Of a DNA stretch of 37,664 bases, positions 2,580 to 27,726 are shown one piece after another. The translations under genes were made by a program, and so were the position numbers. The first letter of the stretch is position 1, and every line of letters begins with the position of its first letter. Source of the stretch: Prevotella sp. (GTDB lineage: Bacteria > Bacteroidota > Bacteroidia > Bacteroidales > Bacteroidaceae); assembly GCA_017467535.1 (NCBI GenBank), contig JAFUST010000026.1, forward strand, positions 1 to 37,664. Reading direction: 5' to 3'. Under the pieces are notes generated by a model. The model was not told where the DNA came from. It did no database searches and was given only the letters and a program-made list of their open reading frames with translations.

Positions 2580-3992
2580 CTATTTCGAAAGGAAACTATG
2601 AACTTTCTTCGCCGTTTCGATGCCACTGGCCATCGCACGGACAACGAGGCTGGCACCGCTCGCGGCATCGCCACACACAAAGACATTCTCAGGATACTGC
2701 GGATGCTCCGGCTTCAGGAATCCCATAGCCAGCAGGACAAGTTCGGCTTTGATAACCTCGGGCTGCCCCTTCTCGACCATCAGTGGACGCCCGCCTTCTG
2801 GGTTGGGCTTCCAGTCGATTTCCTGCACTTTCACGCCGGTCAGTTTGCCGTCCTTGCCGAGGAACTCGAGGGTGTTGATGTTCCAACGACGGGCGCAGCC
2901 CTCCTCGTGCGATGAGGTGGTCTTGAGGGTGCGCGGCCAGTTAGGCCATGGGTTCTGCGGGTCTTCAGGGCCCTCGACGGGACGGGGCATGATCTCTATC
3001 TGCGTGACGCTCTTGCAGCCCTGGCGGTGTGCCGTGCCGATGCAGTCAGAGCCGGTGTCACCACCGCCGATGACCAACACGTCCTTACCCTTGGCTGTGA
3101 TGCGTTCGTCCTTCGGGAATTCCATCCCGGCCAGCACGCGGTTCTGCTGAGAGAGTAGTTCGAGGGCGAAGTGGACGCCCTTCAGTTCGCGACCGGGGAT
3201 CTTGAGGTCACGTGCCGTCGGAGTGCCAGTGGCAATGACGATGGCCCCCCACCCAGCCTCCCCCGAGGGGGAGGAGTTGCTACCCTGCTCACTGACAGCC
3301 GCCATCAAGCCATCCACGCCCTCCCCTCGGGGAGGGATGGGGAGGGGGCTGTTGTATCTGAACTCGATGCCCTCCTGCACCAGCAACTTGATGCGGCGGT
3401 CGATGATTGCCTTGTTCAGTTTAAAGTTGGGGATGCCGTAGCGCAGGAGACCGCCGGCGGCTTCGTTCTTTTCGAAGACCGTCACCGTGTAGCCCATCAG
3501 GTTAAGGGCGTTGGCGGTGGCCAAACCGGCAGGGCCGGCACCAATGACGGCCACCTTTTTTCCATTACGAACGATGTTGGTATGGGGCTGGATGTAGCCC
3601 TCGCGGAAGGCGGCCTCGGTGATGGCAGCCTCGTCTTCGCGGTTGGTGGTCGGCTCGTGGTTGAAGCGGTTCAGCACGCAGGCCTTTTCGCACAATGCCG
3701 GACAGATGCGGCCAGTGAACTCGGGGAAAGGATTAGTGCTGTTGAGCAGCCGATAGGCCTGTTCCCACTCACCCTTATACAAGGCATCGTTCCACTCTGG
3801 CGGCTTGTTGCCCAGCGGACAGGCCCAGTGGCAGAAGGGTACGCCGCAATCCATGCAGCGGCTTGCCTGCAACTTCCGTTCGCGGGTGTTCAGTGTCTGC
3901 TCTACCTCGCCGAAGTCGTGTATTCTATCGTGTATCGGACGATACCCGGCCTCCTGCCGGTGTATCTCCAGGAATGCTTTTGGATTTCCCAT
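2580..3992 (-). CDS. gltD: Glutamate synthase, small (beta) subunit, with in-frame repeat insertion
   Basis: A 470-residue NAD(P)H-oxidising FAD/Fe-S subunit of GOGAT that passes electrons to GltB. Cysteine motifs RCMDCGVPFCHWACP and RICPALCEKAC lie within the first 110 residues. A GxGxxG FAD motif (VIGAGPAGLATANA) and a second dinucleotide motif (VIGGGDTGSDCIG) follow, and GDAASGASLVVRA ends the protein. Residues about 215-251 do not look like GltD: they read SPLPIPPRGEG...SSPSGEAGWGA and are encoded by two GC-rich palindromic repeats in inverted orientation (3241-3350). The frame stays open through them and conserved sequence resumes at IVIATG. It follows gltB by 36 bp. Confidence 0.95.
   Translation of the reverse strand: MGNPKAFLEIHRQEAGYRPIHDRIHDFGEVEQTLNTRERKLQASRCMDCGVPFCHWACPLGNKPPEWNDALYKGEWEQAYRLLNSTNPFPEFTGRICPALCEKACVLNRFNHEPTTNREDEAAITEAAFREGYIQPHTNIVRNGKKVAVIGAGPAGLATANALNLMGYTVTVFEKNEAAGGLLRYGIPNFKLNKAIIDRRIKLLVQEGIEFRYNSPLPIPPRGEGVDGLMAAVSEQGSNSSPSGEAGWGAIVIATGTPTARDLKIPGRELKGVHFALELLSQQNRVLAGMEFPKDERITAKGKDVLVIGGGDTGSDCIGTAHRQGCKSVTQIEIMPRPVEGPEDPQNPWPNWPRTLKTTSSHEEGCARRWNINTLEFLGKDGKLTGVKVQEIDWKPNPEGGRPLMVEKGQPEVIKAELVLLAMGFLKPEHPQYPENVFVCGDAASGASLVVRAMASGIETAKKVHSFLSK
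3241..3350. repeat. Paired GC-rich palindromic element inside gltD
   Basis: Two copies of a unit made of a run of C, a short spacer and a G/C palindrome face each other: 3245-3274 (palindrome CCCCCGAGGGGG) and about 3319-3349 (palindrome CCCTCCCCTCGGGGAGGG), about 44 bp apart. The whole reads in frame as about 37 residues of GltD. The plan is the same as the pairs at 7914-7998 in gltB and 36095-36226 before gyrA. Confidence 0.8.
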
Positions 3993-3998
3993 TTTATT

Positions 3999-4030
3999 TA
4001 TTGAACATTGAACATTGAGGATTGAACATT
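3999..4030. repeat. ATTGAAC heptanucleotide tandem repeat in gltB-gltD gap
   Basis: The gap between gltB and gltD consists largely of four tandem heptamers, ATTGAAC, ATTGAAC, ATTGAGG, ATTGAAC, from 4000, ending inside the gltB stop codon region (4029-4031). The same heptamer in both orientations makes up the insertion in purF at 24480-24571. Confidence 0.8.
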
Positions 4031-7000
4031 AGTAATCGCGCTGGATGTCTGCGATCTTGCTTTGCAATTTCTTGAACTGCTCCTCCTGCAGCACACGTTT
4101 GTATTCGATGGGCACCACCTGGATGAAGTCGTCCACATAGTGCGGCCAGTCGTCGAGCATTGTGCGGGCCAGTTTCGAGCCGGTGTAGAGGTAGTGTTGG
4201 CGAATGAGTTCGTGCAGTTCCTTGCGGCTGACGCTGTCCTCCACGAGGTTGATCTCCACCATGTCCATATTGCAGAAGTAGTCGAAGGTGTGCTTCTTGT
4301 CCCATACATAAGCCACGCCGCCCGACATACCGGCAGCGAAGTTGCGGCCCGTCTCGCCGAGCACCACCACACGACCGCCGGTCATGTATTCGCAGCAGTG
4401 GTCACCGGCACCTTCGATGACGGCAATGGCACCACTGTTACGCACGCCGAAACGCTCTCCCACCTTGCCATTGATGTAGAGTTCGCCAGATGTGGCACCG
4501 TAGAGACCGGTGTTGCCGGCGATGATGTTGTCCTCGGCACGGAAGTCCTCGCCACTACGTGTTGGTGGCAGAATGCTGATGCGGCCACCGCTGAGGCCCT
4601 TACCGAAATAGTCGTTGCATTCGCCTTCAAGTCTTAGGTTGAGTCCGCTGACAGCAAATGCACCAAAACTCTGGCCTGCTGAGCCTTTGAACTTGATGTT
4701 GATAGTGCCTTCAGGCAGGCCTGCCTCACCGTATTTCTTGGCGATGACACCACTCAGCATGGTGGTGACGGCACGGTCGGTATTCTTGATGGCGTAGTCG
4801 AGTGTAAGTTCCTCGCCATTTTCGATGGCTTTCTCAGCAGCACGTATGATTTCTTCGTCTTTCACACCGCTGACCTTGGTGAAGGCCCCACGGTCCCAGT
4901 AGAGTGCGCGGTCGGTCTCGGGCTGATGCAGCAGACGCTCGAAGTCGATGGTCTTCTGCTTGTCGGTGGCACGGGTGGTATCCACTTCGATCAACTCCGT
5001 ATGACCGATGATCTCCTTCAGGCTATGCACACCAATCTCCTCGAGGTATTCGCGTACCTGCTGAGCCAGGAAGGTGAAGTAGTTGACCACGTAATCGGCA
5101 CGGCCTTCGAAGTGCTTGCGCAACTCCGGGTTCTGCGTGGCCACGCCCATTGGACAAGTGTTGGTGTTGCACTTGCGCATCATCACACAGCCCAGCACAA
5201 TGAGCGGCAGCGTGCCGAACGAGAACTCGTCGGCGCCGAGCATCGCCATGATGATGACATCTTTGGCGGTTTTCAGTTGTCCGTCTGTCTGCAGGCGCAC
5301 CTGGTTTCGCAGACCGTTGATGACCAGTGTCTGCTGAGTCTCAGCCAGACCAATTTCCGGCGAGATGCCTGCAAAGCGCATACTCGAAGCAGGACTGGCA
5401 CCTGTGCCGCCCTCAGCGCCACTGATGACGATGAGGTCGGCCTTGGCCTTGGCCACACCGGCAGCGATGGTGCCTACGCCACTCTCGGCTACCAGTTTTA
5501 CACTGACGGCAGCGGTCGGATTGATGTTCTTCAGGTCGAAGATGAGTTGTGCCAGATCCTCGATAGAATAGATGTCGTGATGGGGCGGGGGAGAGATGAG
5601 CGAAATGCCGGGGATGGCGTTGCGCGTCTTGGCGATGATGTCGTTGACCTTGAAGCCGGGCAACTGACCGCCCTCGCCAGGCTTGGCACCCTGAGCCACC
5701 TTAATCTGAATCTCCTCGGCATTCACCAAATACTCGGCCGTCACGCCGAAGCGACCAGAGGCTATCTGCTTAGTCTTCGATGACAGCGACACGCCGTCCA
5801 CCTCGGTATGATAGCGGGCATTGTCTTCGCCGCCCTCGCCGGTGTTACTGCGTGCACCGAGTTTGTTCATAGCCAGTGCCAGTGCTTCATGGGCCTCGAT
5901 GCTCAGTGCACCGAACGACATGGCACCCGTCACGAAGTGTTTGACGATAGACTCTACCGATTCCAGACCCTCCCCCGGCCCCTCCCTGTGAGGGAGGGGA
6001 GCAGATGCCTTCTTGAAGGTGAGGAAGTCGCGCAGGAAGATGGGCGATTCTTTCTCGTCGACTATTTTCGACCACTCCTTAAACAGTTCGTAGTTGCCTG
6101 TGCGGCAGGCCAGTTGCAGTTTGGCTATGGTTTCAGGATTCCAGGCGTGTTTGATGCCGTCCTTGCGCCAGGAGAATTGTCCGTGGTTTTTAAGTGAAGA
6201 GTGAAAGGCTACGGGTAGGCGACCATCGGTCGGGAATGGAGTGAAGAATGAAGAATTTGCTGCCGCCGAAGTTGGGACCTCGGTAGGAAATTCTTCACTC
6301 TTCACTCTAAACTCTTCACTAAAGAGTATCTGGTCGCGGGCAATCTCTTTCAAGCCAATGCCACCAATGGTGCTCACCTCCGTACCGAAGTATCTCTTCA
6401 GCAAGTCCTCGCTCAAGCCGATGCTCTCGAAAATCTTGGCACCGCGGTAGGACCGGATGGTCGAGATGCCCATCTTCGACATGATCTTTTTCAGGCCTTT
6501 GTCCACGGCCTTGATATAATGGGCTTCGGCCGTCGCATAGTCTTCTTGTATCTTGCCCCGCTTCACGAGGTCGTCGAGGATGGCGAAGGTCATATATGGG
6601 CAAAGGGCCGAGGCACCATAGCCTAAGAGTAGGGCAGCGTGCATCGTCTCGCGAATCTCTCCGCTCTCCACGATGAGTGCCGTCTGTACGCGTTTGCCGA
6701 CCGAGATGAGGTAGTGGTGGACGGCGGAGACGGCCAGGAGGCTCGGAATGAAGAAGCACCCCGACAGACCCTCCAGACCCACCCCCGGCCCCTCCCTGTG
6801 AGGGAGGGGAGTAGATAGTTCTGCATCGTCGATTTTATCGGTCAAGATGATATAGTTGTAGCCATCGTCCACGGCCTTCTCCGCGTCCTTGCACAGTTTG
6901 TCGAGAGCCGTGCGCAGAGCCTCGCCGGCCTGGGAGTAATCACTCCCCTCCCTCACAGGGAGGGGCTGGGGGGTGGGTCTGAAGGTCATTGGGAGTTTTA

Positions 7001-8798
7001 TCGTCTTGAATCCTTTATACCTTATATTACACAGTATATCGAGTTGCGTGTTGGTCAGCACGGGTTGTGGCAGGCGCACCATCTTGCAGTTCGAGGCGTC
7101 GGGCGTCAGAATGTTGGTGCCTACGGCGCCGATGTATTCCGTCAGGCTCATCACCAACTCCTCGCGGATGGGGTCGATGGCAGGATTGGTGACCTGTGCA
7201 AACTGCTGGCGGAAGTAGTTGAACAGCAACTGCGGACGGTCGCTGATGACGGCTAACGGTGTGTCGTTACCCATGGCAGCCACGGGCTCCTGGCCGGTAG
7301 TGGCCATCGGTATGATGGTCTTGTCGATATCCTCCTGGCCGAAACCAAAAGTCAGCAGTTTCCGTTCGAAGTCGGGAACGGCGTTCTCCACGTGGCGACC
7401 GCTCTTCAGTTTCTCCAACTGTACTCGGTTCTCGCTGAGCCATTCGCGGTAAGGGTGGGCCTTGGCCAGTTGTTCCTTGATCTCGCCATCGTAGTAGATG
7501 CGCCCCTCCTGCGTGTCGATGAGCAGGATCTTACCAGGTTGCAGGCGGCCTTTCGATACCACGTCGCCTGGCTCGAAGTCCATCACGCCCACCTCGGAGG
7601 CCACCACCATCATGCCCTGCTTGGTAATGGTGTAGCGGCTGGGACGCAGGCCGTTGCGGTCGAGCATACCACCGGCATAGCGGCCATCAGAGAAGAGCAG
7701 GGCTGCAGGACCATCCCACGGCTCCATCAAGATAGAGTGGTATTCGTAGAATGCTTTCAGGTCTTCCGATATGGGATTCTTGTCGTTGAACGACTCCGGT
7801 ACCAGAATGGCCATCGCCTGTGGCAGCGACAAGCCGCTCATCATCAGGAACTCGAACACGTTGTCCAGCGAGGCCGAGTCGCTCATGCCGTCCTGCACGA
7901 TGGGGCGCAGGTCGGCCCCCCATACTGCCCCCGAGGGGGCTTCATTAGTTTTGCGTGTATGGACTATAGTGTCCCCCTCGGGGGACGAAAGGGGGGCTGC
8001 CAGTAGCACGCTCTCGCGGGCTTTCATCCAGCCGCGGTTGCCCCGGATGGTGTTGATCTCGCCGTTGTGTGCCAACAAGCGGAAGGGCTGGGCCAGTTTC
8101 CATTTGGGAAATGTGTTTGTGCTGAATCGGGAATGAACCAGCGCCAATCCGCTTGTAAAGTAATCGTTCGACAGGTCAGGGAAGTAGCGACGCAGTTGCC
8201 CACTGGTCAGCATGCCCTTGTAGATGATGTTTTTGCTTGAGAGTGAGCAAATATAAAAATCCTCGTCGGCAATGCGGTTTTCTATCCGCTTGCGTACCTT
8301 ATATAATATACGCTCGAATACGGGTACGTTGTCATCCGACACGCCAGTTATGAAGATCTGCTTGATGTCAGGCTCCACTTCCCGTGCTGCCGCCCCCAGG
8401 ACCTCAGGGTTCGTGGGCACTATGCGCAGGTGCATCAGTTGCAGCCCCTCGCGCTCTGTCTCTTCTATCGTGATGGAGAGAATCTCCTGCTGCTTCTGTT
8501 CGTCGCGGGGCAGAAATATCAGTCCTGTGCCGTACTTCCCTTTCTCAGGAACGGGAATCCCCTGCAACAGGATGAACTCATGTGGTATTTGAACCATGAT
8601 GCCCGCACCGTCACCAGTCTTGTCGCGTGTCTCGGCCCCACGGTGCTCCATGTTCTCCAGCACTCGGAGCGCATTGTCCACCAGTTCGTGGCTCTTGTTG
8701 CCGTGAATATTGACAACCATGCCCACACCGCAAGCATCGTGCTCGTAGGTACTCTGGTAAAGGCCTTTGCTTTGCTCGTAATCCTTACATTTTGTCAT
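4029..8798 (-). CDS. gltB: Glutamate synthase, large (alpha) subunit, with several in-frame repeat insertions
   Basis: A 1589-residue GOGAT large subunit that makes two glutamates from glutamine and 2-oxoglutarate. The class II amidotransferase domain begins at YEHDACGVGMV, where the Cys at residue 23 would become the mature N-terminal nucleophile after propeptide cleavage. The FMN/synthase domain follows, with the 3Fe-4S motif CVMMRKCNTNTCPMG, and then the C-terminal beta-helix (GATSGELYINGKVGERFGVR). The usual length is about 1500; the excess comes from non-homologous insertions near residues 267-295, 606-620, 662-676, 825-871 and 932-946, each matching a repeat at DNA level. All keep the frame. 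It is first in its operon and divergent from glnK. Confidence 0.95.
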   Translation of the reverse strand: MTKCKDYEQSKGLYQSTYEHDACGVGMVVNIHGNKSHELVDNALRVLENMEHRGAETRDKTGDGAGIMVQIPHEFILLQGIPVPEKGKYGTGLIFLPRDEQKQQEILSITIEETEREGLQLMHLRIVPTNPEVLGAAAREVEPDIKQIFITGVSDDNVPVFERILYKVRKRIENRIADEDFYICSLSSKNIIYKGMLTSGQLRRYFPDLSNDYFTSGLALVHSRFSTNTFPKWKLAQPFRLLAHNGEINTIRGNRGWMKARESVLLAAPLSSPEGDTIVHTRKTNEAPSGAVWGADLRPIVQDGMSDSASLDNVFEFLMMSGLSLPQAMAILVPESFNDKNPISEDLKAFYEYHSILMEPWDGPAALLFSDGRYAGGMLDRNGLRPSRYTITKQGMMVVASEVGVMDFEPGDVVSKGRLQPGKILLIDTQEGRIYYDGEIKEQLAKAHPYREWLSENRVQLEKLKSGRHVENAVPDFERKLLTFGFGQEDIDKTIIPMATTGQEPVAAMGNDTPLAVISDRPQLLFNYFRQQFAQVTNPAIDPIREELVMSLTEYIGAVGTNILTPDASNCKMVRLPQPVLTNTQLDILCNIRYKGFKTIKLPMTFRPTPQPLPVREGSDYSQAGEALRTALDKLCKDAEKAVDDGYNYIILTDKIDDAELSTPLPHREGPGVGLEGLSGCFFIPSLLAVSAVHHYLISVGKRVQTALIVESGEIRETMHAALLLGYGASALCPYMTFAILDDLVKRGKIQEDYATAEAHYIKAVDKGLKKIMSKMGISTIRSYRGAKIFESIGLSEDLLKRYFGTEVSTIGGIGLKEIARDQILFSEEFRVKSEEFPTEVPTSAAANSSFFTPFPTDGRLPVAFHSSLKNHGQFSWRKDGIKHAWNPETIAKLQLACRTGNYELFKEWSKIVDEKESPIFLRDFLTFKKASAPLPHREGPGEGLESVESIVKHFVTGAMSFGALSIEAHEALALAMNKLGARSNTGEGGEDNARYHTEVDGVSLSSKTKQIASGRFGVTAEYLVNAEEIQIKVAQGAKPGEGGQLPGFKVNDIIAKTRNAIPGISLISPPPHHDIYSIEDLAQLIFDLKNINPTAAVSVKLVAESGVGTIAAGVAKAKADLIVISGAEGGTGASPASSMRFAGISPEIGLAETQQTLVINGLRNQVRLQTDGQLKTAKDVIIMAMLGADEFSFGTLPLIVLGCVMMRKCNTNTCPMGVATQNPELRKHFEGRADYVVNYFTFLAQQVREYLEEIGVHSLKEIIGHTELIEVDTTRATDKQKTIDFERLLHQPETDRALYWDRGAFTKVSGVKDEEIIRAAEKAIENGEELTLDYAIKNTDRAVTTMLSGVIAKKYGEAGLPEGTINIKFKGSAGQSFGAFAVSGLNLRLEGECNDYFGKGLSGGRISILPPTRSGEDFRAEDNIIAGNTGLYGATSGELYINGKVGERFGVRNSGAIAVIEGAGDHCCEYMTGGRVVVLGETGRNFAAGMSGGVAYVWDKKHTFDYFCNMDMVEINLVEDSVSRKELHELIRQHYLYTGSKLARTMLDDWPHYVDDFIQVVPIEYKRVLQEEQFKKLQSKIADIQRDY
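5963..6004. repeat. GC-rich palindromic element inside gltB (copy 1)
   Basis: The core is the inverted repeat CCCCTCCCT / AGGGAGGGG around a TGTG loop, preceded by CCTCCCCCGG. In the gltB frame it reads APLPHREGPGEGL. It is almost identical to the copy at 6774-6813. Confidence 0.85.
6188..6325. repeat. GAGTGAA heptanucleotide element inside gltB
   Basis: AGTGAAG/AGTGAAA-type heptamers on the left and TTCACTC, TTCACTC, TAAACTC, TTCACTA on the right face each other and flank a GC-richer centre containing AATTTGCTGCCGCC (6254-6267). In the gltB frame it encodes about 45 residues (FRVKSEEF...NSSFFTPF...FHSSLK) between two segments of normal GltB. The same 14-mer occurs at 29232-29245. Confidence 0.75.
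6774..6813. repeat. GC-rich palindromic element inside gltB (copy 2)
   Basis: A near-identical twin of 5963-6004 with the same CCCCTCCCT / AGGGAGGGG core, reading TPLPHREGPGVGL in GltB. It lies in opposite orientation to the copy at 6941-6981, with about 127 bp of ordinary gltB coding sequence between them. Confidence 0.85.
6941..6981. repeat. GC-rich palindromic element inside gltB (copy 3, inverted)
   Basis: The same core in reverse orientation relative to 6774-6813, so GltB reads it as RPTPQPLPVREGS. The element is thus tolerated in frame in either orientation, because neither strand gives a stop in the frame used. Confidence 0.85.
7914..7998. repeat. Paired GC-rich palindromic element inside gltB
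   Basis: Two inverted units, GCCCCC...GCCCCCGAGGGGGC on the left and GTCCCCCTCGGGGGAC...GGGGGGC on the right, are separated by about 25 bp of AT-richer sequence. Together they encode SPEGDTIVHTRKTNEAPSG and flanks, about 29 residues, within the amidotransferase domain of GltB just before IVQDGMSDSASLDN. Confidence 0.8.
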
Positions 8799-26028: not shown

Positions 26029-27726
26029 ATGTGTGGAATCGTATCTATCCTAAACATCAAGGAACAGACGCCGGAGTTGCGTCAGAAGGCATTACGCATG
26101 AGTCAGAAGATCCGTCACCGCGGACCTGACTGGAGTGGCATCTATTGCGGCGGCTCTGCCATCCTGGCTCACGAGCGACTGAGCATTGTCGACCCTGAGT
26201 CGGGCGGTCAGCCGCTGTATTCGCCTGACCATAAGCAGGTGCTGGCCGTGAATGGCGAGATATATAACCATCAGGACATCCGCAAGCAGTATGCCGGCAA
26301 GTATGACTTCCAGACGGGTAGCGACTGCGAGGTCATCCTCGCCCTCTATCGCGACAAGGGCATCGACTTTCTGGAAGATCTCAGCGGCATCTTTGCCTTC
26401 GTACTCTACGATGAGGAGCGCGACGAGTTCCTCATTGCCCGCGACCCCATCGGTGTCATTCCTCTTTACATCGGCTATGACAACGACGGCACCGTCTATG
26501 TGGCCTCTGAACTAAAGGCCCTCGAAGGACAGTGCGAGACATACGAACCGTTCCTGCCAGGCTTTTATTATTGGAGCAAAGAGCCCGGCATGAAGCGTTA
26601 TTATCAGAGGGACTGGATGCAGTACGATGCAGTGAAGGATAATCCGGCTTCTGTCTCCGCCATCCACGATGCGCTGGAGGCGGCCGTCAAGCGCCAACTC
26701 ATGAGCGACGTGCCCTACGGCGTGCTCCTCTCCGGCGGTCTCGACTCTTCGGTCATTTCCGCCATTGCCGAGAAATACAGCGAGATGCGCATCGAGAACG
26801 ACTCCAAGACTAAGGCCTACTGGCCGCGCCTCCACTCTTTCGCCGTAGGTCTGAAGGGTGCCCCCGACTTGGCCAAGGCCCGTCTTGTGGCTGACCATAT
26901 CGGTACCGTTCACCATGAGATCAACTATACCATCCAAGAAGGTCTCGACGCCATTCGCGATGTCATCTACTTCATTGAGACCTACGACGTCACCACCGTC
27001 CGTGCCTCCACGCCGATGTACCTGTTGGCTCGCGTCATCAAATCGATGGGCATCAAGATGGTGCTCAGCGGTGAGGGTGCCGACGAGATATTTGGTGGCT
27101 ACCTCTACTTCCACAAGGCTCCGACGGCCAAGGACTTCCATGAAGAGACCGTGCGCAAACTCTCCAAACTGCATCTCTACGACTGTCTGCGTGCCAACAA
27201 AAGTCTGTCTGCCTGGGGTGTCGAGGGCCGCGTGCCTTTCCTCGACAAGGAGTTCCTTGATGTTGCCATGCGCACCAATCCGGAGGCTAAGATGTGTGGT
27301 CTCAACCCCAATCCCTCTCCTAAGGGCGAGGAGAGTTTCATCATAGAGAAGCGCATCGTCCGCGAGGCCTTCGCCGACATGTTGCCTGCCGAGGTGGCAT
27401 GGCGGCAGAAGGAGCAGTTCAGCGATGGTGTGGGCTACTCGTGGATTGACACGCTCAAGGAGATGACGTCAAAAGCCGTCACTGACGAACAGATGGCACA
27501 CGCCGCAGAGCGATTCCCTATCAATCCGCCGAAGAACAAGGAGGAATACTACTACCGCTCCATCTTTGCCGAGCACTTCCCCAGCGACTCCGCTGCGCGC
27601 AGTGTTCCCAGTGAGGCCAGCGTGGCCTGTAGCACAGCCATTGCCCTGGAGTGGGACGAGGCCTTCCGCAACCTCAACGACCCCAGTGGTCGGGCTGTGA
27701 AGGGCGTGCATCAGCAGGCCTACTGA
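26029..27726 (+). CDS. asnB: Asparagine synthetase B (glutamine-hydrolysing)
   Basis: A 565-residue enzyme that makes asparagine from aspartate, ATP and glutamine. The N-terminal nucleophile is Cys2 (MCGIVSIL), followed by KIRHRGPDWSG and the glutaminase domain. The synthetase domain has the ATP-pyrophosphatase loop LLSGGLDSSVISAI and VLSGEGADEIFGGY. Near residues 426-436 the sequence LNPNPSPKGEE replaces the short turn expected between MCG and the EK.IVREAF helix, and it matches a GC-rich palindromic repeat (27305-27333). It starts 5 bp after purF and is followed by a strong terminator. Confidence 0.96.
   Translation: MCGIVSILNIKEQTPELRQKALRMSQKIRHRGPDWSGIYCGGSAILAHERLSIVDPESGGQPLYSPDHKQVLAVNGEIYNHQDIRKQYAGKYDFQTGSDCEVILALYRDKGIDFLEDLSGIFAFVLYDEERDEFLIARDPIGVIPLYIGYDNDGTVYVASELKALEGQCETYEPFLPGFYYWSKEPGMKRYYQRDWMQYDAVKDNPASVSAIHDALEAAVKRQLMSDVPYGVLLSGGLDSSVISAIAEKYSEMRIENDSKTKAYWPRLHSFAVGLKGAPDLAKARLVADHIGTVHHEINYTIQEGLDAIRDVIYFIETYDVTTVRASTPMYLLARVIKSMGIKMVLSGEGADEIFGGYLYFHKAPTAKDFHEETVRKLSKLHLYDCLRANKSLSAWGVEGRVPFLDKEFLDVAMRTNPEAKMCGLNPNPSPKGEESFIIEKRIVREAFADMLPAEVAWRQKEQFSDGVGYSWIDTLKEMTSKAVTDEQMAHAAERFPINPPKNKEEYYYRSIFAEHFPSDSAARSVPSEASVACSTAIALEWDEAFRNLNDPSGRAVKGVHQQAY
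27305..27333. repeat. Single GC-rich palindromic element inside asnB
   Basis: ACCCCAATCCCTCTCC-TAA-GGGCGAGGAG has the same plan (C-run, spacer, palindrome) as the elements in gltB and gltD, but is unpaired and more diverged. It reads NPNPSPKGEE in AsnB. Confidence 0.6.

Follow-up and report, generated by a model that had tools for sequence, protein, structure and literature searches.

The glutamate synthase locus and its inserts

The window, i.e. the whole stretch of DNA analysed (37,664 nucleotides), is contig C89 of a Prevotella sp. genome, hereafter G000, which comprises 2.39 Mb in 108 contigs and is 79% complete; most of the genomes compared with it are drafts. It carries the genes of the two chains of glutamate synthase, both interrupted in frame by palindromic sequences. 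The identity of GltB and GltD is given by Pfam, the glutamate synthase (GOGAT) domains scoring far above the Pfam cut-off, and the other gene names used below were recognised by eye from translations, without search. In what follows, two halves are "tails-out" when they form a mirror-image pair with their C-run tails outward, and they form a "bracket" when they enclose native coding DNA. The features are:

2580..3992, minus strand: gltD (small chain of glutamate synthase, 470 aa), containing a single palindromic pair in frame
3241..3350, no strand: palindromic pair of gltD, tails-out, CCTCCCCCGAGGGGGAGG + CCCTCCCCTCGGGGAGGG, its C/G-run tails facing outward and a short spacer lying between; in relatives the place is taken by a short variable loop
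4029..8798, minus strand: gltB, glutamate synthase large chain, 1589 aa, holding the remaining listed elements
5963..6004, plus strand: type-1 half in gltB, about GltB residues 932-946; end of region B, downstream on the coding strand
about 6186..6320, no strand: composite insert of other repeats in gltB, about GltB residues 827-871; TTCACTCTTCACT type and GGCTACGGGTAGGCGA...TCGGGAATGG type
6774..6813, plus strand: type-1 half, downstream end of the bracket (coding strand), about GltB residues 662-675; inserted residues extend to about 683
6814..6940, minus strand: native gltB segment between the halves, about GltB residues 620-661 including the ends of the halves; phylogeny unlike that of the remaining gene
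6941..6981, minus strand: type-1 half, upstream end of the bracket (coding strand), about GltB residues 606-619
7914..7998, no strand: type-2 palindromic unit in gltB, CCCCCGAGGGGG / CCCCCTCGGGGG plus spacer, about GltB residues 267-295

The first-pass annotation had described five palindromic places in gltD and gltB as in-frame insertions of one element family. All five are in the sequence, in the open frame of proteins with well-scoring GOGAT domains; the composite at about 6186-6320, made of other repeats with many partial copies elsewhere in G000, had been missed. Of the three gltB copies described as single, 5963-6004 is single here, but 6774-6813 (+) and 6941-6981 (-) are one tails-out pair with native coding DNA between them. 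These three copies are type-1 halves. The idea of a common family does not hold for 7914-7998, which belongs to another family: almost the entire unit, spacer included, recurs at 82-83% in contigs C88 and C48.

The gltD pair and the five gltB inserts are absent from the first-aligned relatives, with two exceptions. The gltB paralog of the same genome (G000b; contig C107, locus L039) encodes inserted residues at the two ends of region B, and genome G008 has a different repeat at one site. Conservation of the segments in distant Bacteroidales, which the annotation would have read as a sign of native loops, was not seen, since none of the seven order-level GltB rows aligned carries them. In the alignment with a solved GOGAT (PDB 7mfm), the inserts are gapped where it aligns, the composite region falling between the two aligned stretches. 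The roughly 40 GltB residues between 6774-6813 and 6941-6981 align to native GltB of relatives.

Several further observations concern the same genes. Contig C107 holds a second gltB-gltD copy, whose GltB is about 90% identical to that of the window and whose insert set differs in part; at the position of the region B left half, the C107 gene has a left half and the window gene has another repeat. In a record of Prevotella sp. RGIG1522 (goat abomasum; L131), GltB is 84% identical to that of the window over 1253 columns, and its gene carries an element half at the same site as the window gltB; G000 is on this ground probably a ruminant Prevotella. A relative of the GGCTACGGGTAGGCGA...TCGGGAATGG element of the window composite (about 6207-6240) is nested in both bracket halves of genome G139 (L360). 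The gap between gltD and gltB is occupied at 4000-4033 by the AT-rich tandem TTGAACATTGAACATTGAGGATTGAACATTA.

Anatomy and dispersal of the elements

The type-1 half measures about 46 bp, has sharp edges and reads AGACTCTCCCCCRG + CCCCTCCCTGTGAGGGAGGGG + AGTAGATAG. Its consensus, built from 40 G000 copies and only from copies with a 5-base loop, is aGACtCTCCCCC-.g-CCCCTCCCTGTGAGGGAGGGG-AGTagatAg, with aGACtCTC at the outside end and AGTagatAg at the inside end; that of genome G050, from 17 copies, is similar. A terminal GTAG or CGTC tetranucleotide, used as a superfamily tag, is not present in the type-1 consensus. Strong hairpin folding is found in the five stretches folded (z from -6.75 to -11.03). 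By eye, two of the three reading frames of the consensus left half are open, the third being closed by a TGA in the loop; all three are open for the right half.

The supposition of a dispersed family is borne out by genome searches. A 201-base query from the window matches 54 places in its own genome, counting itself, and the pattern CYCCCCNNCCCCTCCCTNNNAGGGAGGGGAG, with up to two mismatches, has 39 copies in G000 and none for the reversed control. The tolerant pattern is present in 13 of 35 other genomes of the genus and in none of 24 genomes of other genera; with a looser pattern required to match exactly, other Prevotella and Bacteroidaceae (many of them ruminant), Sphingomonas, Smithella, Tannerella and others are among the matches listed.

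The halves are arranged in a nearly constant way. Among close neighbours in the loci retrieved (separation below 500 bp), 37 are tails-out, 4 tandem and 1 tails-in; the unpaired rows of the half finder still include chance matches, such as that at window position 27312. G000 has about 20 tails-out pairs, and those examined, in a gene-context survey of element loci other than L078, L100 and L101, are mostly intragenic or span a gene start. The spacer measures 44-45 bp in 7 of 10 pairs of G050. In G000 it measures 19-57 bp in 14 of 21 pairs and 66-436 bp in the other 7; the 21 include L076, which has the same gene as L075 but lies on a different contig. No target-site duplication was detected around 36 pairs: the mean direct-repeat score was 0.44 against 0.66 after shuffling, and 416 of 500 shuffles scored as high. 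A MITE moved by a DDE transposase is therefore disfavoured. The pair flanks show slightly elevated inverted similarity (reached by 6 of 500 shuffles), which fits the mirrored tail duplications seen at several pairs. As a separate case, a Bacteroidales record (L120:6071-6251) shows four same-strand palindrome copies in tight succession.

Insertions in other genes

Counted on mechanical ORFs and in loci selected around copies, 30 of 37 strict palindromes of G000 loci lie in ORFs of at least 200 aa, versus 86% of random positions. The corresponding counts are 13 of 27 (80% random) in named Prevotella records and 5 of 11 (67% random) in genomes G045, G042 and G011. Indifference to genes is thus not a general property of the elements. 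A count for Sphingomonas was discarded because GC-rich antisense ORFs inflate it.

In G000, whole pairs lie inside genes like dnaG, recG, miaB, pyrK, cobQ, dsbD, porX and sufS, as well as in ADP-forming acyl-CoA synthetase-like and helicase-like genes. In ilvH-, rnhB-, argB-, patB-, tsaE- and susD-like genes, and in a lipoprotein gene adjoining the susD-like gene, one half precedes the start codon and the other is intragenic. Pairs of this start-straddling kind, with a leader half and a coding half, were noted at L068, L072, L074, L071, L066 and L073, and might influence where translation begins. The clearest further in-frame inserts are those of the RecG-, MiaB-, TsaE- and IlvH-like proteins, with clean insertions relative to aligned relatives of 36 residues in the RecG-like and about 24 in the MiaB-like protein. 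Native coding DNA separates the halves in the TsaE- and PatB-like genes. No empty site could be demonstrated for L059 (radical-SAM-like), for which the search gave no matches, for L071, with a single weak match, or for L062, for which there were matches; the same applies to L060, the DnaG-like L061 and the RnhB-like L072, whose relatives vary too much at the insert or are too short there. In the alignments, the elements occupy length-variable positions. At the tsaE-like loop where G000 has its palindromic half, G007 (L294) has a tandem ACTCAAC array and G022 (L295) another C-run palindrome. A pair is also inserted in a PriA-like helicase gene (by eye) of the named Prevotellaceae records L123 and L161.

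A bracketed gltB segment with a history of its own

The two gltB sites that form the bracket of G000 (site 1) are also occupied by halves in G050, where they belong to another family. Outside the bracket, two groupings are recovered: G050 with G007 and G022 (support 1.0), and G000 with G000b, its paralog (0.985). The tree of the 153-nt interior joins G000 and G050 (0.979), apart from those relatives. Vertical descent of a bracket common to G000 and G050 is disfavoured by these two conflicting trees. The site counts, from which the halves are excluded, agree: G050 matches G000 against G007, G022 and G000b at 20 sites inside and 32 outside, and it matches these three against G000 at 3 sites inside and 244 outside (Fisher 2e-14). 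With a looser definition (codons 597-683), 22 sites go with G000 and 8 with G007/G022, four of these eight being located at 659-682.

The upstream switch falls between codons 596 and 600, bar one site at 595, i.e. 7-10 codons ahead of the left half, which begins at about 606. The downstream switch is blurred: sites 659, 660 and 682 go with G007/G022, two at 683 go with G000, and all those from 684 to 701 go with G007/G022. This pattern places the downstream switch inside the right half or at its end.

A larger sample was then assembled. A GltB piece is present in 172 of 249 genomes of the genus; 81 gltB copies, a non-random set picked by match and availability, were tried, of which 74 were parsed and 7 missed. 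According to a length rule, 38 of the 74 have inserts at both sites. Both halves could be assigned to a family in 20 of the 38, with typing patterns drawn up after the sequences had been seen; six families occur, and the two halves belong to the same family in 18 of the 20. Shuffles, which ignore relatedness, averaged 4.0 matches and went no higher than 11, so that none of 20,000 reached 18. Similarly, the left half scores 41.7 against the reverse-complemented right half within species and 22.8 between species (0 of 20,000 shuffles as high), with the same outcome after dereplication to 35 copies (40.6 versus 22.8). The partner of a half ranks first in only 7 of 38 cases, and in the TGTGA family the halves of one bracket resemble each other no more closely than do halves taken from different species (58.2 versus 59.4, n=5), so the matching is at family level. 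At the second gltB site pair (region A), the halves also match within species (39.4 versus 28.8, n=13; 0 of 20,000 shuffles). In G139, the left half bears an additional insert, about 35 bp long and palindromic, whose exact reverse complement is found in the right half, the two halves aligning over 65 columns with 3 mismatches.

The presence of the bracket was next used as a label on trees. On the flank tree, which retains 71 of the 74 copies, 35 of them with a bracket, it changes at least 16 times, against a shuffled mean of about 24, with none of 500 shuffles as low; the label is thus partly clustered on this tree, whose starred branches force only 6 changes. On the tree of the 81-nt interior, 7 or 8 changes suffice (8 with FastTree), versus a mean of 19.9 and a minimum of 14 in 29 flank windows of equal length. 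Third codon positions give 9 changes for the interior and a mean of 21.8, with a minimum of 17, for the flank windows. The two windows that touch the bracket give 19 and 17 changes; at third positions both give 17, the same as the flank minimum. Since flank and touching windows remain high, and third positions agree, the strong linkage of the label is confined to the interior. In region B (14 of 70 copies labelled, 69 used), the interior gives 4 changes versus 10-14 in 53 windows, with a weak result at third positions (9 versus a minimum of 10). In region A (13 of 61 labelled), where the interior has only 36 nt, the result is weak, with 9 changes versus 10-13 in 27 windows; third positions give 7 versus a minimum of 9.

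Identical cassettes in different genomes

In region A, genomes G236, G129 and G050 share 203-221 identical nucleotides, in runs that span the left half, the interior, the right half and about 9-26 nt beyond the halves. Among the 24 bins of 60 nt adjoining these runs, 20 are at 72-95% identity and one at 100%, and the three outermost upstream bins read 0, having run off the data; some low values are due to register lost in this unaligned comparison. In region B, G129, G050 and G141, the latter a single-contig genome, share 169-179 identical nucleotides reaching about 20 nt beyond the right half. This tract begins within the interior, some 90-100 nt ahead of the point where the conserved RDF motif ends; a left half is lacking there in G050 and G141, and 88 nt of the tract are also present in G162. 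Over the 450 nt upstream of site 1, identity to G050 is 89.8% for G236, 86.0% for G129 and 82.0% for G141. The two halves go with the intervening DNA, and such pieces are common to several species.

Search for a transposase

The first-pass annotation had suggested looking for a RAYT-type transposase gene; no such neighbour of the element was found, none of the 25 Y1 loci listed with hairpins having its gene directly flanked by the element. The one Y1 transposase-like gene of G000 is likewise unflanked in this 79% complete genome. It is a 434-residue frame that scores 24 bits against a cut-off of 23 and has the motifs DHVH, WQ and YVKDNP. The nearest similar palindrome to a Y1 gene lies 1.4 kb away, at L326, and some Y1 genes carry other palindromes. 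Y1-related genes occur in 10 of 13 element-bearing and 8 of 22 element-free genomes of the genus, as a tally without a statistical test. One Y1-like family (L099:7013-8314, with homologs in L106 and L341) has a variable tandem insert of HGEV or QKNAA repeats after the HUH motif, and several copies per genome in some relatives.

Possible origin of the bracketed segments

Family-matched halves, the distinct history of the interior and the identical cassettes, taken together, indicate that the pairs appear to mark exchanged segments. The explanation that we hold to be probable is that several families of hairpin elements, arranged tails-out, inhabit these genomes and that the gltB bracket was acquired whole from other species by short-tract recombination ending at or near the hairpins. 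Several such families live in this Prevotella-like lineage, mostly as mirror-image pairs with their C-run tails outward. As the main frames are free of stops, an insertion whose length is a multiple of three, falling in a loop or linker or at a terminus, would be tolerated and the protein would survive with an additional segment rich in Pro, Gly, Arg and Glu. The pairs take two forms: compact units, whose short spacer measures 45 bp in most G050 pairs, and brackets around native coding DNA. In gltB, the left half, the gene segment and the right half would have been imported together by short-tract recombination, with tract ends falling at or near hairpins.

Import by recombination, with ends at or near the hairpins, is the best-supported route; the steps around it are more conjectural. 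Entry would occur through homologous recombination of incoming DNA. The hairpins themselves may set the tract ends, for instance by stalling replication or by being cut. As for the first placement of the elements, a Y1/HUH-type reaction on single-stranded DNA may be envisaged. Random independent insertion would also yield other orientations, unlike the near-constant tails-out arrangement. Mirrored insertions could result from insertion of a double-stranded stem into a hairpin of the target DNA, or from mirror copying by template switching.

A more far-reaching proposal, which we put forward tentatively and with more doubt than confidence, is that pairs form the ends of about 60-300 bp of native coding DNA that is replaced or moved between species as a unit with both its ends. 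If so, parts of essential enzymes would be exchanged horizontally, independently of the remaining gene.

Other explanations have to be weighed against acquisition of the bracket by recombination. The brackets might be old, and polymerase template switching between their inverted arms might have produced the matched families and the mirrored inserts. The exactly mirrored insert of about 35 bp in both G139 halves is what such homogenisation would leave, as is the excess of inverted, not direct, repeats in pair flanks, and template switching is reported to homogenise inverted-repeat arms (PMC8604942, for the part of that work considered). It would also be expected to make the arms of one bracket more alike than others of their family, but no such excess was found (n=5), and it leaves the distinct phylogeny of the interior and the cross-species identical cassettes unaccounted for. 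It is somewhat unlikely as the explanation.

Alternatively, the elements would be plain intragenic insertions comparable to REPINs or to Rickettsia palindromic elements (RPEs), sitting as passive markers at the ends of variable loops in genes that undergo ordinary interspecies homologous recombination. Their length-variable positions are consistent with this, intragenic REPs being known (PMC3733652, in the portion drawn on here), and so are the 32 sites at which G050 matches G000 outside the bracket, the partial clustering of the bracket label on the flank tree and the region B tract that G050 and G141 share without a left half. Passive markers would not explain why the link between label and phylogeny falls at the elements, the bracket-touching windows behaving like distant ones, nor why site 1 switches 7-10 codons before the left half and within the right half, nor why identity in region A stops about 9-26 nt outside halves that match in family. 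We regard this reading as unlikely.

It may also be imagined that the bracketed segment is a transposable unit, a Y1/HUH transposase moving the single-stranded half-segment-half into the homologous gene elsewhere. The tails-out orientation of 37 of 42 close neighbours, the lack of target-site duplication, the motifs of the single G000 Y1 gene and the tally of Y1-related genes would suit such a transposase. Nevertheless, the element flanks none of the listed Y1 loci, the closest similar palindrome being that of L326, and neither excision nor a bracketed segment inserted elsewhere was seen, which makes this mechanism very improbable. Finally, native variable loops of GltB and GltD, without any insertion, have practically no chance of being the answer: loop length does vary among species, but the same DNA occurs in many unrelated genes, is missing from all seven order-level relatives aligned and is gapped against the solved structure, and the repeat copies elsewhere in the genome refute this reading.

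Acquisition of bracketed segments by recombination would have several consequences. These genomes would provide a natural system, densely sampled, for following how small selfish repeats add new segments to essential enzymes, as well as a concrete route by which gene pieces with defined ends, rather than whole genes, cross between species. Should the tract be set by these ends, the origin of sub-gene recombination boundaries becomes testable, and ruminant Prevotella proteins may be viewed as natural insertion libraries. Such mosaics can also mislead the annotation and the phylogeny of these genomes.

Comparison with known systems

The sources cited in this section are used for the parts of their text that bear on the comparison. 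REPINs are REP doublets that form hairpins and are associated with RAYT transposases (Bertels and Rainey, 2011, PMC3116915). The present elements resemble them, as there described, by their inverted doublets, conserved ends, less conserved spacer and strong single-stranded hairpin; spacer length is fairly constant in G050 (44-45 bp in 7 of 10 pairs) and runs from 19 to 436 bp in G000. They differ in that the G000 elements are mostly intragenic and translated, whereas REPINs are described as extragenic, in that the spacer may be native coding DNA, and in that no element-flanked RAYT gene was found.

RPEs, which the first-pass annotation named as the parallel, are a good functional one: judged by their description, they too are palindromic, lie in frame in unrelated proteins and form several families (PMC10969869). 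The halves studied here differ from them by being paired and able to bracket native sequence, and the portion of PMC10969869 drawn on does not describe exchange of bracketed segments for RPEs. The parallel is incomplete, since intragenic REPs with GTAG or CGTC tags are described from Opitutus terrae and Thauera as well as R. conorii, often as dimers coding for about 20-30 residues (PMC3733652). These families differ from the present ones by their tags and, according to the same excerpts, by copies that are mostly intergenic. The annotation was aware of no description for this lineage; none was found for Prevotella, a word absent from PMC3733652, and CGTC REPs are reported there from Bacteroidetes.

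In Bacteroidetes, TnpA-REP proteins of Y1 subclass 2.6 are flanked by atypical hairpins (PMC6006769, in the part concerned with this subclass); that paper contains no Prevotella. The HUH, WQ and Y..NP motifs of the G000 Y1 gene resemble those tabulated for the subclasses, but the gene is unflanked by the element. Inverted repeats subject to template switching, studied in coding sequences for the homogenisation of their arms (PMC8604942), share with the present pairs their location in coding DNA and their matching arms; from the passages used of PMC8604942 and PMC6649704, they apparently involve neither dispersed families nor interspecies exchange of cassettes.

In the open-licence PMC literature, no description of such elements in Prevotella, or of bracketed segment exchange, was found. 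Intragenic REPs, REP dimers, REPINs and RPEs are already known (PMC3733652, PMC3116915 and PMC10969869, as far as the parts cited extend), and a dispersed family inserted in frame had been recognised in the first-pass annotation, which had missed the REPIN-like tails-out pairing and the bracket around a native, apparently exchanged gltB segment. The anatomy of the elements is REPIN-like and their translation RPE-like. What appears to be new is the bracketed gltB segment, with a history of its own and apparently exchanged between species as a unit.
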